A stretch of DNA of 64,000 nt from Actinopolymorpha pittospori (lineage in GTDB: Bacteria; Actinomycetota; Actinomycetes; Propionibacteriales; Actinopolymorphaceae): NCBI RefSeq assembly GCF_014873875.1, contig NZ_JADBEM010000001.1, positions 8,122,001 through 8,186,000 on the forward strand. The letters run 5' to 3'. Positions 8,767-57,688 of the stretch are shown in pieces. A model generated the notes under the pieces. The model saw only the letters and a program-made list of their open reading frames with translations, was not told the origin of the DNA and made no database searches. The position numbers were made by a program, and so were the translations under genes. Each line of letters starts with the position of its first letter. The first letter of the stretch is position 1.

Positions 8767-9405
8767 ATGGACCTTCAGCAGGCGAGAATGCTCCGCGACG
8801 TTCTCTCGGACACGGCGTGGTGGGACCGCACCCGCGCGTTCGGTCGCGCCCTTCGAACCTCCACCAGGACCCCGGGTGGCCTGCTCCTGATCGGTCCACC
8901 CGCCGCCGAGCCCTGGCATCTCACCGCCCATCTCGATGACGAGGCCCGCTTCGCCGGGCTCCCCGAGATGTCTCCGACCCTGGTGCGCTGGGATCCACCA
9001 CGCGGTGCGCCAAGCCAACTCGCGGTCGGGCTCGAGCGCCTGTCGACCGCCAAGCGCGGCGAGTCAGTGCTCGTGGTGGCGGAGACGGCACCGGAAGCGC
9101 TGCTCGAGCGCGTCCACGACGTACGCCGCGGCGGGGCGACCATCTTCGCTCTCGACACGGGTCACACAGAACTCGCGGGCATCGCGCACGAGGTCCTCTC
9201 CGTCGACACCGGAGTGGTTCCGGCAGGCAATGCCGCACGGACCGATCCTCTGGTCGAGCACCCGGCCGCCGGTCCGGCGATCTCCTTCGAGGGAGCACAA
9301 CACCTGCTGAGCCTCGCGGCCGCGGAAGCCGAGCCAGGGATGCCGAAAGGATTGCGATCCAGGCTCGCCCGACTGCTCGACGCCATCTCCGGGCCGGATG
9401 CCTGA
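8767..9405 (+). CDS. Conserved hypothetical protein (212 aa)
   Basis: Starts MDLQQARMLRDVLSDTAWWDRTR and shows an alternating alpha/beta pattern: GLLLIGPP, SVLVVAETAPEALLERVHDVRRGGATIFALD, then EVLSVDTGV. This resembles a Rossmann-like or SIS-like nucleotide or sugar-phosphate fold without a recognisable catalytic motif. No signal peptide or membrane segment. It is monocistronic, divergent from fgd and followed by a long intergenic region. I do not recognise the family and assign no function. Confidence 0.65.
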   Translation: MDLQQARMLRDVLSDTAWWDRTRAFGRALRTSTRTPGGLLLIGPPAAEPWHLTAHLDDEARFAGLPEMSPTLVRWDPPRGAPSQLAVGLERLSTAKRGESVLVVAETAPEALLERVHDVRRGGATIFALDTGHTELAGIAHEVLSVDTGVVPAGNAARTDPLVEHPAAGPAISFEGAQHLLSLAAAEAEPGMPKGLRSRLARLLDAISGPDA

Positions 9406-9611
9406 AGCGCCCGAGTGGGCTGTCTTGGTCCTGAATTCCTCGATTGAATAGTTGTCACTAATTCGCCCCGGCTCGAAGAATTGCCCGACCAGAGAAATCC
9501 GCCAAACCCCGCACTGATCAAGGAAATGCTTCGCTGTCAAGGGTTTACGAGACCGCCGAATGTCGCAAGATCCACTGAGATGGCGGGGCTACGTCCTTGC
9601 CACAGCAACGG

Positions 9612-52753: not shown

Positions 52754-53116
52754 GAGGAAACTCTCCGGAGTCGATCGGACACAGGGGACACAAGGGCAGC
52801 GGAGTGTCCAGTCATGCAGTCCGGATGAGCATGCGCCCAGTGTAGAGGGGATCACCCACGAGCGCCGAAGTGGGCTCGGACGGGTGCTTTGTCTCGTGCG
52901 TGTCGCGACTCCTCACCGGTCCCCTCGCGAGCCCGGGCGTCGCGGTCCTGGGACCAGGCCGAGTTGTGAGATCAGGCCGAGTTGTGGGATCAGGCCAAGA
53001 GGGACGCACAGACGTTGGCGTGGTGGCCATCGTCGGAGGTGACGAGGTGGCGCATACCCTCGAAAACGGCCCGCACGGACACGGCCCCCCGCAGTACCGG
53101 AACGGAGTTCTCCCCC
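52754..53116. promoter_or_regulatory. ABC-F/bioY divergent region with tandem repeats and BioQ-like site
   Basis: 363 bases without a credible gene. An 18-bp unit ATCAGGCCGAGTTGTGGG is repeated 2.6 times: 52953-52970, 52971-52988, partial 52989-52999. A -10-like TACCCT lies at 53055-53060. GAAC-GGA-GTTC (53100-53110) resembles the BioQ operator (TGAAC N3 GTTAC/GTTCA) of actinobacterial biotin genes and covers the GGAG ribosome binding site of bioY, so a bound repressor would block expression. No biotin riboswitch is known or seen. Confidence 0.5.
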
Positions 53117-53719
53117 ATGCCGCCAGCCCGCCGCCTGCCTACCAGGGACCTCGCGCTGATCGCGCTGTTCGCCGCCCTCATCGCCGTACTCGGCCTGCCC
53201 GGGTCGTTCTCCCTGTTCGGCAACGCCGTCCCCATCACCGCACAGAGCCTCGGCATCATGCTGTGCGGAGCGATCCTCGGCGCGAAGCGGGGCCTGCTCG
53301 CGGTGCTCACGTTCTGCGCCCTCGTCCTTGCCGGACTTCCCCTGCTGGCCGGTGGACGGGGTGGGCTCGCCGTCCTGGCCAGCGCCTCCGCCGGCTACTT
53401 CGTGGGATTCCCGTTGGGTGCCTGGGTCACCGGCTGGCTGACGGAGAAGATGCTGCCGCGCTACACGGTCCCGGTCGGCCTGATCGCCAACATCGTCGGC
53501 GGGATCGCCGTCGTGTACGCCATCGGCATCCCGGTCCAGGCCTGGCGTACCGACACCTCCGGCGTGGTCGCGACGCTCGTGGCCTCCGCCGTGTTCCTGC
53601 CGGGCGACCTGATCAAGGCGGTGGTGGCGACCGTCATCGCCAAGGGGGTGCACGCGGGCTACCCGACCCTCGGCTCCGACCGCACGGAGCCCCCCAGCCG
53701 GATCCGATCCGGCCGCTGA
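53117..53719 (+). CDS. bioY: BioY biotin-binding S component of an ECF transporter
   Basis: 200 residues from ATG 53117. Six hydrophobic segments with the BioY patterns LIALFAALIAVLGLPGSF, PITAQSLGIMLCGAILGAKRG, GLPLLAGGRGGLAVLASASAGYFVGFPLGAWVTGWL and FLPGDLIKAVVATVIA; the ARRLPTRDLALIALFAAL start also fits. It binds biotin at the membrane and works with BioM and BioN encoded 2.7 kb downstream. Two genes for a ligase and a thiolase-like protein lie between them, an order I also recall from other actinobacteria. Confidence 0.93.
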   Translation: MPPARRLPTRDLALIALFAALIAVLGLPGSFSLFGNAVPITAQSLGIMLCGAILGAKRGLLAVLTFCALVLAGLPLLAGGRGGLAVLASASAGYFVGFPLGAWVTGWLTEKMLPRYTVPVGLIANIVGGIAVVYAIGIPVQAWRTDTSGVVATLVASAVFLPGDLIKAVVATVIAKGVHAGYPTLGSDRTEPPSRIRSGR

Positions 53720-53767
53720 GCGCCTCCCCGACCTGGGCAGGAGGGACCTGTCCAGGCCGGGGAGAGG

Positions 53768-53773
53768 TACCGT
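53768..53773 (+). promoter_or_regulatory. Possible internal -10 element before the ligase gene
   Basis: TACCGT, eight bases, ATG 53782: the same spacing as the leaderless promoters elsewhere. It follows the AGGAGGGACCTGTCC stretch after the bioY stop. Confidence 0.35.
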
Positions 53774-53781
53774 TCGCCACG

Positions 53782-55077
53782 ATGCCCATCTCCCGAGACG
53801 TGATGAGACGCGCGGCCGCCGATCCCGATCGGCCCGCCGTGGTCGGCCCCTGTGGTCCGGTCAGTTTCGGTGAGTTGGGCGAGCGTGCGCGACGACGGGC
53901 GGAGGCACTCGCCGACTCCGGGGTGGTCGCCGGTCAGGGCGTGGTCTGCGCCGAGGAGGATCCGAGCGCCGTCCTCGTCTCGCTGGTCGCCGCCGACCTC
54001 CTCGGCGCCGCCGCCATCGTCACCGAGCCGGCCTGGCCCGACGCGGTCGCCGACGCCGCCGTCACCGCCGCCCGTGCGCTGGTCGACCAACACGGCAAGG
54101 CCGCGTCGCTGGTGGTGTTCAGTTCCGGGAGTACGGGGCTGCCGCACCCGATCGCGCGCACCCGGCGTTCCTGGACGTTCAGCTTTCCGACCTTCTCCGC
54201 CCTCACCGGCATCGGCGCCGACGACACGGTGCTCATCCCCGGTCGGCTGTCCGGCAGTCTCTTCCTCTACGGCGCGCTGCACGCGCTGACGATGGGTGCC
54301 GCGGTGCATCTGCTGCCGACCTGGTCACTGGGCCTCGCCGCCGAGGCGGCCGCGTCCACCACGGCCGTCCACCTGGTGCCCACGATGCTGGCCAGCCTCA
54401 TCGAGCGGATCGACCCCGCGGCCAGCCGACTCCGGGTGGCGGTGTGCGCCGGCGCGCACCTGGACCAGCCGGTGGAATCCGCCGCGCGCTCGGCGGGGGT
54501 GCAGGTCATCGACTACTACGGCGCCGCCGAACTCTCCTTCGTCGCCATCCGCCGGCCTGGGCTGGCGCCGGGCCGGCTCCGCGTCTTCCCCGAGGTGGAG
54601 GTCGACGTGCGGGACGGCGCGATCTGGGCGCGGAGTCCCTACCTCGCGCTCGGCGTCGACCAGGACGCCGAGGGCTTCGCCGGCGTCGGCGACCACGGCG
54701 TACGCCATGACGACGGCACGTTGACCGTTCTCGGTAGGGGCGACGCGGCGATCACGAGCGGTGGTGCCACGATCGCGCCGGAGGCGGTCGAGGGCGTTCT
54801 GCGCACGGCGCCCGGTGTCCAGGACGTCGCTGTCGTCGGCTCGCCACACCCACGCCTCGGTCAGGTCGTCGTCGCGGTCGTCGAGGTCCGACCCGACCAC
54901 CCACTGTCGCTGCCCGTCCTGCGTTCCACGGCGACCGAGCAACTTCCCCCCGCGCAGCGTCCCCGCGTCTGGTACGCCGTGGACCAGCTTCCGCGCACCG
55001 GCAGCGGCAAGGTCGCCCGAGCCCTCGTCGGTGCCGGGCTGCGGGACGGCTCGCTCGGGGCCCGGGTGCTCGCATGA
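53782..55077 (+). CDS. Class I adenylate-forming ligase (AMP-binding, acyl-CoA ligase-like)
   Basis: 431 residues from ATG 53782, about 70-100 shorter than typical acyl-CoA ligases. VVFSSGSTGLPHPIARTRRSW is the A3 P-loop, though the usual Lys after Pro is His. YYGAAELSFVAIRR (A5), VGDHGVRHDDGTLTVLGRGDAAITSGGATIAPEAVEGVL (A7-A8) and LPRTGSGKVARAL, with the catalytic Lys (A10), are complete. It activates a carboxylate as AMP ester and probably passes it to CoA. Between bioY and bioMN, biotin, a biotin catabolite or pimelate are candidate substrates (inference). Stop overlaps the thiolase start (ATGA). Confidence 0.85.
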   Translation: MPISRDVMRRAAADPDRPAVVGPCGPVSFGELGERARRRAEALADSGVVAGQGVVCAEEDPSAVLVSLVAADLLGAAAIVTEPAWPDAVADAAVTAARALVDQHGKAASLVVFSSGSTGLPHPIARTRRSWTFSFPTFSALTGIGADDTVLIPGRLSGSLFLYGALHALTMGAAVHLLPTWSLGLAAEAAASTTAVHLVPTMLASLIERIDPAASRLRVAVCAGAHLDQPVESAARSAGVQVIDYYGAAELSFVAIRRPGLAPGRLRVFPEVEVDVRDGAIWARSPYLALGVDQDAEGFAGVGDHGVRHDDGTLTVLGRGDAAITSGGATIAPEAVEGVLRTAPGVQDVAVVGSPHPRLGQVVVAVVEVRPDHPLSLPVLRSTATEQLPPAQRPRVWYAVDQLPRTGSGKVARALVGAGLRDGSLGARVLA

Positions 55078-56381
55078 GCGCGGGAACTCACCAGAACGCG
55101 GGCGCCGACTGGCACCCCCCGACGACCGACCCCTTCGAACCTGTGATCGTCGCGGCGCGGCGGACGCCGATCGCGACCGCCGGACACGGCCTGGCCCAGC
55201 GTTCCGCCGAGCGGCTCGCCGCGCCCGTCCTCAGCGCTCTGCTCGCCGACCTCGGCGTCGATTCCGACCAGGTGGCCGACGTACTCCTGGGCAACACGAT
55301 GGGACCTGGCGGCAACCTCGCCCGGGTCGCGGCGCTGGCGGCCGGTCTCGGGACTCGTGTGCCCGGCGTGACGGTCGACCGCCAGTGCGGAAGTGGGCTG
55401 GAGGCCGTGACGCTGGCCGCCAGCCAGGTCCGTGCGCGCCGCGGCGACCTGTACCTCGCCGGCGGGGTGGAAAGCGCGTCCACCGCGCCGATCCGGGCCT
55501 GGCGGCCGACCACCGAGGGCGAGGAGCCCCGCGTCTACGAACGCGCGCCGTTCGCTCCCCCGCCCTACGCCGACCCGGAGATGGGCGAGGCCGCTGACCT
55601 GGTGGCCCGGGAGGCCGGGGTCAGCCGGGCCCGTCAGGACGCCTACGCCGCCCGCAGCCACGCCCGGGCGATCGCGGCGACGGAGGCGAAGGCCTTCGCC
55701 GACGAACTCGTTCCGCTGGACGGACTCGACCACGACGAGCGTCCCCGCGCCGGGCTGGACGTGCGCCGGCTCTCGCGGCTGCCTCCGGCGTTCGTCCCCG
55801 AGACGGAGGGCGGGACCGTCACCGCGGGCAACTCCTGCGGCGTCAACGACGGCGCGGCCGCCGTCGCCGTCGTCTCCGAACGCGTGCGGGCCCGGCACGG
55901 CTGGCCGGGGCTGCGGCTCCTCGACTGGGAGTGCGCCGGATCCGATCCCGCCCGACCCGGACTCGGTCCCGTACCCGCGGTCCGCGCGCTGCTGGCTCGA
56001 AACGACCTCGGCCTCGACGACGTGGGCGCGATCGAGTTCGTCGAGGCTTTCGCCGGCCAGGTCCTCGCCTGCGCCGACGCCCTCGACCTCGATCCTGTGC
56101 GGATCTGCCCCGAAGGCGGCGCCCTGGCCCTCGGCCATCCGTGGGGCGCGAGCGGAGCCGTCCTGCTCGTCCGCCTGTTCTCCCGGATGGTCCGCGCGGA
56201 CGGACCCGCCCTCGGCCTCGCCGCCGTCGCCATCGGTGGCGGCATGGGCCTCGCGGCGCTCGTGACGCGGGTCGGCCCAGGACCCGGCCCAGAACCAGGC
56301 CCAGAACCAGGCCCAGAACCAGGCACTGACACACCCGGCGATACGCCGGGCACGGGACCGACTCCGGAGAACGAGCAGTGA
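55074..56381 (+). CDS. Thiolase-fold protein lacking two catalytic residues
   Basis: 435 residues. The nucleophile Cys is present in VDRQCGSGLEAVTLAA and the active His in GGALALGHPWGASGA. The second Cys of the usual CxGGGxG is Ala (AVAIGGGMG), and Asn of NEAFAxQ is Val (VEAFAGQ). Without the second Cys the enzyme cannot deprotonate the nucleophile acyl-CoA as known thiolases do, so an acyl-transfer or hydrolytic role is more likely (inference). The C-terminus ends in PGPEP repeats and a Thr/Pro tail. Coupled to the ligase upstream, 18 bases before bioM. Confidence 0.82.
   Translation: MSAGTHQNAGADWHPPTTDPFEPVIVAARRTPIATAGHGLAQRSAERLAAPVLSALLADLGVDSDQVADVLLGNTMGPGGNLARVAALAAGLGTRVPGVTVDRQCGSGLEAVTLAASQVRARRGDLYLAGGVESASTAPIRAWRPTTEGEEPRVYERAPFAPPPYADPEMGEAADLVAREAGVSRARQDAYAARSHARAIAATEAKAFADELVPLDGLDHDERPRAGLDVRRLSRLPPAFVPETEGGTVTAGNSCGVNDGAAAVAVVSERVRARHGWPGLRLLDWECAGSDPARPGLGPVPAVRALLARNDLGLDDVGAIEFVEAFAGQVLACADALDLDPVRICPEGGALALGHPWGASGAVLLVRLFSRMVRADGPALGLAAVAIGGGMGLAALVTRVGPGPGPEPGPEPGPEPGTDTPGDTPGTGPTPENEQ
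56286..56321 (+). repeat. Three tandem 12-bp repeats in the thiolase-like gene
   Basis: GGCCCAGAACCA at 56286, 56298 and 56310, encoding Pro-Gly-Pro-Glu repeats in the C-terminal tail. In frame, so copy number can change without frameshift. Confidence 0.75.
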
Positions 56382-56399
56382 TCGAGCAGTGACCAGACC

Positions 56400-57074
56400 A
56401 TGATCGAACTCCGGGACGTCACCCACCAGTACGGCTCCCGCGTCGTCCTCTCCCGTCTCGACCTGCGCCTGTCCGAACGGCGTATCGGCGTGGTCGGCGC
56501 CAACGGCTCGGGCAAGTCCACCTTCGCGCGCCTGCTCAACGGCCTGGTGGTTCCTACCGAGGGGCAGGTCCTCGTGGACGGCTTCGACACGCGAACGGCC
56601 GGCCGGGAGGTACGCCGCCGCGTCGGCTTCGTCTTCACTGACCCCGACGCCCAGGTCGTGATGCCCACGGTCGGCGAGGACGTCGCCTTCGGGCTGCGCC
56701 GCTCGGGCCTGCCGCGGGAGGAGATCGCCCGTCGGGTGGAGGAGGCCTTGCGCGCCTACGGACTCGCGGAGTACGCCGACCATCCCGCGCACCTGCTCTC
56801 CGGCGGCCAGACCCAGCTCCTCGCGCTGGCGGGCGTCCTCGTCACCGAGCCGGCGACGCTGGTGTGCGACGAGCCCACCACCCTGCTCGACCTGCGCAAC
56901 GCGCGGATGGTCACCCAACTCCTCGCCAAGCTGCGGCAACAGGTGATCCTCGTCACCCACCACCTCCAGCTCCTGACCGGGTTCGACCGGGTACTCGTCC
57001 TGCACGAGGGCCGGCTCGTCGCCGACACCGATCCGGCCAGCGCGGTCGCCGCCTACGAGGAGCTGCTGGCATGA
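56400..57074 (+). CDS. bioM: ECF transporter ATPase (BioM/EcfA)
   Basis: 224 residues. GANGSGKSTFARLLNG (Walker A), VFTDPDAQVVMPTVGEDVAFGL (the Q-loop region typical of EcfA/CbiO), LLSGGQTQLLALAGVL (signature), LVCDEPTTLLDLRN (Walker B) and LVTHHLQLL. A single ATPase gene implies a homodimer that powers BioY uptake through BioN. The start is only 18 bases after the thiolase-like gene and its stop overlaps bioN (ATGA). Confidence 0.92.
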   Translation: MIELRDVTHQYGSRVVLSRLDLRLSERRIGVVGANGSGKSTFARLLNGLVVPTEGQVLVDGFDTRTAGREVRRRVGFVFTDPDAQVVMPTVGEDVAFGLRRSGLPREEIARRVEEALRAYGLAEYADHPAHLLSGGQTQLLALAGVLVTEPATLVCDEPTTLLDLRNARMVTQLLAKLRQQVILVTHHLQLLTGFDRVLVLHEGRLVADTDPASAVAAYEELLA

Positions 57075-57688
57075 GCGGAGCGTTGACTCCGGCACTGGGG
57101 CTCTACCAACCGGGCGCTTCGCTGCTGCACCGCGCCCCGGCCGGCGCGAAGCTCGCCGGGCTGGCGTTGCTCGCGGTGGGTGTCCTGCGGATCACCGCGG
57201 TCACCACCCTCGGCATGGTCTTCGGCGCCACCCTGGCCGCCGCGGCCCTGGCGGGGCTGCCGTGGCGGGTCTGGCTCGCCCAGCTGCTGCCCGTCTGCTG
57301 GTTCGCCCTTCCCCTGCTGGTCTTCCAGTGGGTGACGGCGGGCCAGCACCGCGCGTTCATGGTGGTCGGCCAGTTGGTGGTGCTCGTCTCCCTGGCTGCA
57401 CTGGTGACCCTGACGACCCGGGTGTCGGCGATGCTGGACGCGTTCGAGGTGGCGCTTGGCCCACTGCGTCGGATCGGCGTCAGCCCGTCCCGGGTCGCCC
57501 TCGTGCTCGCCCTCACGGTCCGCTGTGTGCCGATGGTCGCGCAGACGTACGCCGAGACCCGGGAGGCCCAACGCGCCCGCGGCCTCGAACGCAGCCCGGT
57601 CGCCCTCGTCGTCCCCCTCGTCATCCGGCTGCTGAAGAAGGCGGACGCCATCGGCGAGGCGCTCTCGGCCCGGGGGCTCGACGACTGA
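57071..57688 (+). CDS. bioN: ECF transporter transmembrane protein (BioN/EcfT)
   Basis: 205 residues. Four or five membrane segments, LHRAPAGAKLAGLALLAVGVLRI at the start, and two cytoplasmic Ala-Arg-Gly coupling motifs, AQRARGLERS and LSARGLDD, which dock into the ATPase grooves. It completes the biotin transporter with bioY and bioM. The gene ends seven bases before the convergent IclR regulator. Confidence 0.92.
   Translation: MSGALTPALGLYQPGASLLHRAPAGAKLAGLALLAVGVLRITAVTTLGMVFGATLAAAALAGLPWRVWLAQLLPVCWFALPLLVFQWVTAGQHRAFMVVGQLVVLVSLAALVTLTTRVSAMLDAFEVALGPLRRIGVSPSRVALVLALTVRCVPMVAQTYAETREAQRARGLERSPVALVVPLVIRLLKKADAIGEALSARGLDD

Follow-up and report, generated by a model that had tools for sequence, protein, structure and literature searches.

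The window analysed here, 64,000 nucleotides of the Actinopolymorpha pittospori genome (contig NZ_JADBEM010000001.1, positions 8,122,001 to 8,186,000), carries at 53117-57688 an operon in which an AMP-forming acid:coenzyme A (CoA) ligase and a thiolase-fold enzyme are encoded between the components of an energy-coupling factor (ECF) transporter for biotin, in the order bioY-ligase-thiolase-bioM-bioN and all on the plus strand (Table 1). The junctions between the genes are, in order, 62 bp, an ATGA overlap, 18 bp and a further ATGA overlap. An initial annotation had described the five genes as one tight unit, which their coordinates, the ATGA overlaps, the short gaps and the Pfam matches bear out. 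A BioY protein, an ABC ATPase and a CbiQ-type T component, the three parts of a BioYMN system, are all recognised by Pfam, transport itself being predicted. The genome consists of a single contig of 10.56 Mb, and a model search returned one BioY match in the whole of it.

Table 1. Genes of the operon and active-site codons of the thiolase-fold enzyme (positions within the window)
Feature	Position	Strand	Remarks
bioY, S component of biotin ECF transporter, 200 aa	53117..53719	+	PF02632, 117 bits
AMP-forming acid:CoA ligase, YhfT-like, 431 aa	53782..55077	+	PF00501 (AMP-binding), PF13193 (AMP-binding_C)
Thiolase-fold enzyme, YhfS-like, 435 aa	55074..56381	+	PF00108 (Thiolase_N), PF02803 (Thiolase_C)
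Codon, nucleophile Cys105 (DRQC; DRQCGSG motif)	55386..55388	+	Cys in 151/151 readable relatives
Codon, Val323 at NEAF Asn position (VEAF)	56040..56042	+	relatives N 86, V 40, T 26 (n=152)
Codons, His355-Pro-Trp357 (GHPW; GHPWG)	56136..56144	+	His in 152/152
Codon, Ala386 at CxG Cys position (AIGGGMG)	56229..56231	+	Cys in 0/151 readable relatives
bioM, ECF ATPase, 224 aa	56400..57074	+	PF00005 (ABC_tran); TIGR04520 209 bits, below cut-off 315
bioN, ECF T component, 205 aa	57071..57688	+	PF02361 (CbiQ)

A thiolase fold that has lost its second cysteine

In classical thiolases the first cysteine bears the acyl group, the second serves as acid/base and the Asn of the NEAF motif holds the water of the oxyanion hole, as described in the accessible parts of PMC6790690 and PMC3406046. 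The window protein belongs to this fold by its Thiolase_N/C domains and a TIGR01930 score of 357 bits, above the cut-off of 240.55, and it retains the nucleophile Cys, the His of GHP and the Gly-rich loop. Two features of a classical acetyl-CoA C-acyltransferase are missing, namely the NEAF Asn and the acid/base Cys of CxG. The residues first noted at this locus, with nucleophile and His kept, Ala in place of the CxG Cys and Val in place of the NEAF Asn, were thus confirmed as Cys105, His355, Ala386 and Val323.

Relatives were collected from a class set of 394 genomes (no more than the four top candidates scored in each; 45 genomes, in 20 of 138 genera, matching at E 1e-85 or better), an order set of 196 genomes (25 matches), a scan of named genomes (the best 80 of 582 loci, 74 of which were counted as family) and the GTDB family of Paenibacillus chibensis, the source of locus L124 (197 genomes with 32 matches, the 24 at E 1e-148 or better being taken as orthologues). 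Pooling these sets and removing repeats left 152 distinct thiolase sequences. The patterns used in the named-genome scan excluded the CxG Cys and NEAF Asn columns, while one of them included the nucleophile Cys. Thirteen other thiolases served for comparison, six of them from the same scan and set apart for having no ligase directly upstream, when their retention of the Cys had already been seen.

Not one relative carries Cys at the CxG position (A 83, G 47, S 21, one gap), and the residue following GHP is aromatic in all 152 (W 100, Y 48, F 4). The 13 other thiolases retain both the CxG Cys and the NEAF Asn without exception and have L (10), I (1), F (1) or P (1) after GHP. A tree splits the 152 relatives from these 13 with a support of 0.975 and requires three changes from an ancestral Asn in the NEAF column. 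The alignment check proposed with the initial annotation therefore gave a divided answer: the Cys is missing wherever the column can be read, while the Asn, still present in 86 of 152, is only partly lost. A local mutation or sequencing error as the cause of the missing Cys was rejected, since all 151 readable relatives lack it. Judged from the column counts and the three changes on the tree, loss of the second Cys is a family-wide hallmark, and that of the NEAF Asn is clade-specific, a later event in some actinobacterial lines. The window protein also ends in a Pro/Gly/Glu-rich tail encoded by 12-bp tandem repeats (56274-56324), which is missing from the six other sequences of thiolase alignment A1.

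Among known enzymes, the biosynthetic thiolases of Zoogloea and human T2 share the domains, the nucleophile Cys and the GHP His, but not the family-wide absence of the acid/base Cys or the absence of Asn in the window protein. TLP1 of Mycobacterium smegmatis is likewise thiolase-like and departs from the NEAF and CxG motifs, but it has also lost the CxS and GHP fingerprints, and the available portion of its description gives no link to biotin (PMC3406046). The BioZ pathway to pimeloyl-ACP resembles the present system in joining a condensation to a reductive cycle in a biotin-linked setting, as outlined in part of PMC11089781; BioZ is, however, FabH-like and serves later bio genes, whereas the window protein is of Thiolase_N/C type and its genome gives no bioB match. 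No FabH-type Pfam domain was found in the window protein, which has a 51-residue ketoacyl-synt match of 24.3 bits (cut-off 20.8).

The ligase and its kinship with YhfT and YhfS

The window ligase is, at 431 residues, shorter than the 487-position PRK07638 model. It retains an SGSTG loop and a C-terminal GSGK lysine, both invariant columns in alignment A2 (n=60); a Trp just past the nucleotide loop is invariant as well (60/60). The nearest narrow NCBIfam models are PRK07638 for the ligase (164 bits, equivalog cut-off 518) and PRK06690 for the thiolase (327 bits, cut-off 498, the next-best protein of the genome scoring 216), neither cut-off being reached and the broad TIGR01930 outscoring the latter. 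We take PRK06690 to be YhfS and PRK07638 to be YhfT. Among 14 control genomes, one passes the PRK06690 cut-off and one the PRK07638 cut-off. In Cytobacillus (L128), both are passed by genes in the order bioY-ligase-thiolase whose thiolase lacks the second Cys.

For Staphylococcus aureus, the accessible parts of PMC6391492 and PMC7235819 describe repression by BirA of yhfS-yhfT together with bioY and the bio operon and call the enzymes 'putative'; a review, as far as available, gives the same control of yhfS-yhfT in Bacillus subtilis and S. aureus and states no function (PMC11089781). From the model matches and the neighbourhood, the window pair is best read as a distant version of this biotin-regulated yhfT-yhfS. 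The two systems share the linkage of bioY, ligase and thiolase, as found with bioY in Bacillus and Staphylococcus within the BirA regulon, and lack the second Cys alike, as judged from L128; they differ in that the window proteins score far below the model cut-offs and are encoded between bioY and bioMN, and in the additional loss of the Asn.

Two further observations concern the ligase. Directly 3' of bioN, Rhodococcus-type and Nocardia operons encode a second YhfT-like ligase (L074, L076, L077, L078, L081, L082, L084, L087, L091, L093, L096, L112), which in L112 matches PRK07638 with 217 bits, more than the window ligase does. The ligase is also split over two reading frames in L121 (at the same place as in L197) and in L135, which may mean partial decay of the operon at these loci.

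Recurrent linkage to biotin uptake

In 71 of the 74 named family loci the ligase lies directly upstream of the thiolase, and in the other three the match begins 9-190 bases from a contig end. bioY lies within 8 kb in 62 of the 74, and bioY or ecfT in 66. The pair is tied to bioY/ecf genes in Actinomycetota, Bacilli and Alphaproteobacteria. Such counts led us to reject a chance neighbourhood of ligase-thiolase and transporter; the recurrence that the initial annotation proposed to look for was found, and its assignment of both enzymes to biotin uptake is upheld by the conserved synteny. Clustering of neighbours returned antisense shadows besides real genes and led no further.

The alphaproteobacterial form is represented by SMc00965-SMc00966 (AMP-binding protein, thiolase) of Sinorhizobium meliloti, which appear as down-regulated together with a BioY-type gene in an RNA-seq table of PMC12445080, a source available in part. 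Clusters of this type recur in L130, L136 and L141; compared with the window, the order differs, being bioM-bioN-bioY-ligase-thiolase, and the NEAF Asn is kept. In L130 (Sinorhizobium) a 4HBT-type thioesterase gene (9146-9547, minus strand) converges on the thiolase gene; its product could free biotin from its CoA thioester.

Extended operons with a reductive gene set

Paenibacillus relatives carry extended ligase-thiolase operons, which are new here. In L110 and L109 the thiolase is followed by genes matching FAS1_DH_region, MaoC_dehydratas and adh_short in Pfam; L104 encodes a fused FAS1_DH/MaoC protein, an adh_short gene belongs to the operons of L106, L114, L105, L145 and L118, and those of L105 and L109 include an NMO-family protein. 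By NCBIfam this last protein is named FabK, at 279-289 bits in L105, L109 and L121 against a cut-off of 453. The names of the extra genes are drawn throughout from Pfam domains and from NCBIfam matches under the equivalog cut-offs.

A broader view was obtained from 22 regions (L183-L204) of the L124 family, all of which have the ligase and the ketoreductase, bioY being recognised in seven. The series ligase-thiolase-HadA-HadB-ketoreductase is present in 16 of the 22, accompanied by the FabK-like gene in 15 and additionally by ecfT in nine, and gene order is identical among regions with the full set. The fullest arrangement reads bioY-ligase-thiolase-HadA-HadB-ketoreductase-ecfA-ecfA'-ecfT-FabK. 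Taken at the level of these domain matches, the predicted set covers activation, condensation, ketoreduction, dehydration and enoyl reduction, its genes being interspersed with those of the biotin transporter, and the presence of an enoyl reductase indicates the reductive direction. The window operon holds only the ligase and the condensing enzyme of this elongation set, which is full in the 15 regions just mentioned.

Several regions show further genes. A CHY zinc-finger gene lies between ecfT and the FabK-like gene in L118, L124, L189 and L190 (Pfam on L124). A gene for a Vut_1 protein, a putative vitamin uptake transporter, stands upstream of the ligase in L183 (1549-2259), in the place expected for bioY, and a similar frame is present in L185, the Pfam search having been run on L183. 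In the divergent group L200-L204 the ligase, thiolase and ketoreductase genes follow an EcfT-type gene; 5' of the ligase L200 also has an adenine-deaminase-like gene, with similar frames in L201 and L204.

Candidate control sites

BirA-box-like sites were scored in the Bacilli regions against the BirA-box consensus. Sites scoring 17-18 of 18 lie just 5' of the first gene in 20 of 38 regions (L197 repeats L121), while two score 16, six score 15 and ten score 14 or less. The high-scoring group includes nine distinct operons that begin with the ligase and have no recognised bioY (L105, L109, L121, L188, L191, L192, L193, L195, L196). In a control over 24 of these loci and 336,561 bases, all 19 sites of at least 17 fell within the 370 bp preceding the operon. 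The reductive elongation set is thus likely to be under biotin control in Bacilli, to judge from these predicted sites.

In the window, a candidate operator, TTGTGGGATCAGGCCAA, is located at 52982-52998, about 120 bp 5' of bioY, adjoined by an 18-bp tandem repeat at 52955-52996. Of seven relatives from the same family, L223-L227 have a similar, TTGTGGGGTCACGCCAA-like element and L228 and L229 do not. The genes flanking the operon are, on the 5' side and the opposite strand, an ATPase with two ABC_tran matches and, on the 3' side, a convergent IclR-type regulator (both by Pfam); their orientation places them outside the operon.

Biotin synthase and biotin protein ligase

The bioB model gave no match in any of the eight genomes, from three genera, that make up the sample of the window organism's taxonomic family. 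In the class sample bioB was detected in 10 of 45 thiolase carriers vs 185 of 349 non-carriers (Fisher p 1.1e-4, not phylogeny-corrected). Within the L124 family the corresponding figures, again without correction for phylogeny, are 4 of 26 orthologue genomes vs 15 of 20 without a match (p 6.7e-5) and, for genomes with the extended operon, 0 of 19 vs the same 15 of 20 (p 7.7e-7); the 19 are made up of 16 of the fetched regions plus L124, L105 and L109, the family membership of the last two being assumed from their genus. The biotin protein ligase model (TIGR00121) was matched in 80 of 80 genomes, so free biotin should be usable, and the idea of a CoA route replacing this enzyme was rejected on the same count.

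A possible salvage route for shortened biotin

Bisnorbiotin is a product of biotin beta-oxidation. Our favoured reading, held with somewhat less than even confidence, is a CoA-based, reductive elongation by two carbons that goes together with biotin import, ligase and thiolase being its two substrate-specific enzymes. Briefly, BioY with BioMN would import a biotin vitamer with a shortened side chain, such as bisnorbiotin, the ligase would convert it to its CoA thioester, and the thiolase would load the acyl group on Cys105 and add what is presumably a two-carbon unit. Biotinyl-CoA would then arise through a ketoreductase, a dehydratase and an enoyl reductase; Paenibacillus relatives encode these three within the operon, and in the window organism they would presumably be supplied, and act in the same direction, from general lipid metabolism. 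Hydrolysis of the thioester would finally release biotin for biotin protein ligase. Since the family as a whole lacks the second Cys, which would abstract the proton, a decarboxylative condensation using a malonyl thioester, of the kind seen in ketoacyl synthases, is more likely than one based on acetyl-CoA.

Given the elongation set, its likely biotin control, the link to the transporter and the many hosts without bioB, the simplest product would be biotin made from a ring-bearing vitamer whose chain is too short. Such a salvage route would be useful also to bacteria that have bioB. The aromatic residue after GHP and the invariant Trp of the ligase would suit a ring substrate. Of the substrates first considered for the pair, the valerate side chain fits best; where bioB is lacking, a pimelate-like precursor is improbable. 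The complete picture, an undescribed salvage in which shortened biotin is imported and its valerate rebuilt by a dedicated two-carbon elongation, with a thiolase turned into a decarboxylative, ketoacyl-synthase-like enzyme by loss of the base Cys, is offered tentatively, as slightly less probable than the favoured reading. A search over titles and the openings of abstracts, with most subscription papers outside it, returned none on nor-biotin salvage, bacterial biotinyl-CoA or a bioY elongation operon.

A number of points weigh against this proposal. The choice of nor-biotins as substrates is an inference. The window operon ties no more than the ligase and thiolase to the transporter, and its thiolase has lost the NEAF Asn besides, so that the chemistry of this enzyme may be more limited than that of its counterpart in Bacilli. 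The FabK, HadA/HadB and FabG models all stay below their NCBIfam cut-offs for the added genes, and among the best solved structures for the FabK-like protein a putative nitroalkane dioxygenase is level with a FabK enzyme. The ten Bacilli regions with a BirA-like score of 14 or less are L104, L183-L186 and L200-L204, the last two groups having no high-scoring site in the scanned stretch, and in L183 the gene upstream of the ligase is Vut_1, not bioY. bioB exceeds its cut-off in 22 of 70 carriers of one set and in 16 of 22 further named ones (12 of 18 Actinomycetota, among them Rhodococcus, Nocardia and Saccharopolyspora, and 4 of 4 others), and over all sets, the class sample and the L124 family included, in 43 of about 124 distinct carriers when G778, apparently the same genome as G148, is left out. 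Outside the Paenibacillus family, among extended or partly extended operons, bioB accompanies L110, L118 and L104 and not L113 or L126. All these bioB comparisons ignore shared descent. Lack of bioB is hence frequent among carriers but has exceptions, save for the extended form in the L124 family. The bioF model, finally, scores just over its cut-off in the bioB-less Bacilli G558, G560 and G562, where the matches may be related synthases of other function.

Several other explanations were weighed on the same evidence. An unlikely one is that the operon spares biotin: acetyl-CoA carboxylase fails under biotin shortage, and external fatty acids would be scavenged and lengthened as CoA thioesters. 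It explains biotin control and the bioB pattern about as well as salvage does, and it agrees with the annotation of ligase and thiolase as fatty-acid enzymes and with the FAS-like character of the genes added in Bacilli. General fatty-acid synthesis enzymes should, though, suffice for ordinary chains, and what mainly holds this route back is the interleaving with the biotin transporter and the missing Cys, since condensation from acetyl-CoA would need the acid/base residue that is absent in 151 of 151 relatives (role of the Cys according to the accessible parts of PMC6790690 and PMC3406046). It is similarly improbable that the ligase makes biotinyl-CoA to retain biotin, the thiolase fold passing the biotinyl group to another acceptor or to water. 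The initial annotation had favoured such acyl transfer over Claisen chemistry, and the window, where only the two enzymes are tied to the transporter and Cys105 and His355 persist while the base Cys and the Asn are lost, suits it; the Asn, with three changes on the tree, is perhaps dispensable for the common function. The ketoreductase, dehydratase and FabK-like genes of Bacilli, which fit formation of a beta-keto thioester, are left unexplained by it, and this, together with the Asn kept in 86 of 152 relatives, makes acyl transfer the less supported view in general, possible for the Asn-less lines including the window. The reading is further opposed by biotin protein ligase, found in 80 of 80 genomes, which activates free biotin itself.

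The bioB distribution also bears on whether the pair could supply de novo biotin synthesis with a pimeloyl thioester, in the manner of BioZ with glutaryl-CoA. The logic of condensation followed by reduction, dehydration and reduction is alike (PMC11089781, in the part available), and the bioB-bearing carriers counted above speak for it, but bioB is without a match in the window genome and in about 81 of about 124 carriers, so that the known route from pimelate to biotin is blocked there; pimelate supply is disfavoured as the shared function, and we rate this explanation as quite doubtful. Least probable, and very much so, is chain shortening, in which homologues or conjugates of biotin with a longer side chain would undergo beta-oxidation. 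Hydratases of the MaoC type and SDR dehydrogenases serve that pathway too, and the solved structure that best matches the ketoreductase bears the name (3R)-hydroxyacyl-CoA dehydrogenase; on the other side stand the FabK-like gene, the lack of an acyl-CoA dehydrogenase among the identified operon genes and the use of the missing Cys in thiolytic cleavage as well.

Implications

If the salvage reading is true, it would account for yhfT and yhfS of the BirA regulon, two biotin-regulated genes for which the accessible portions of PMC6391492, PMC7235819 and PMC11089781 give no tested function, and which the operon anatomy described here turns into a testable pathway. Bacteria without biotin synthase could then live on degraded biotin, one more class of vitamer would have to enter predictions of biotin auxotrophy, and cross-feeding on degraded biotin would count as a genuine ecological trait. 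The transition from thiolase to ketoacyl synthase would likewise be open to mechanistic study.

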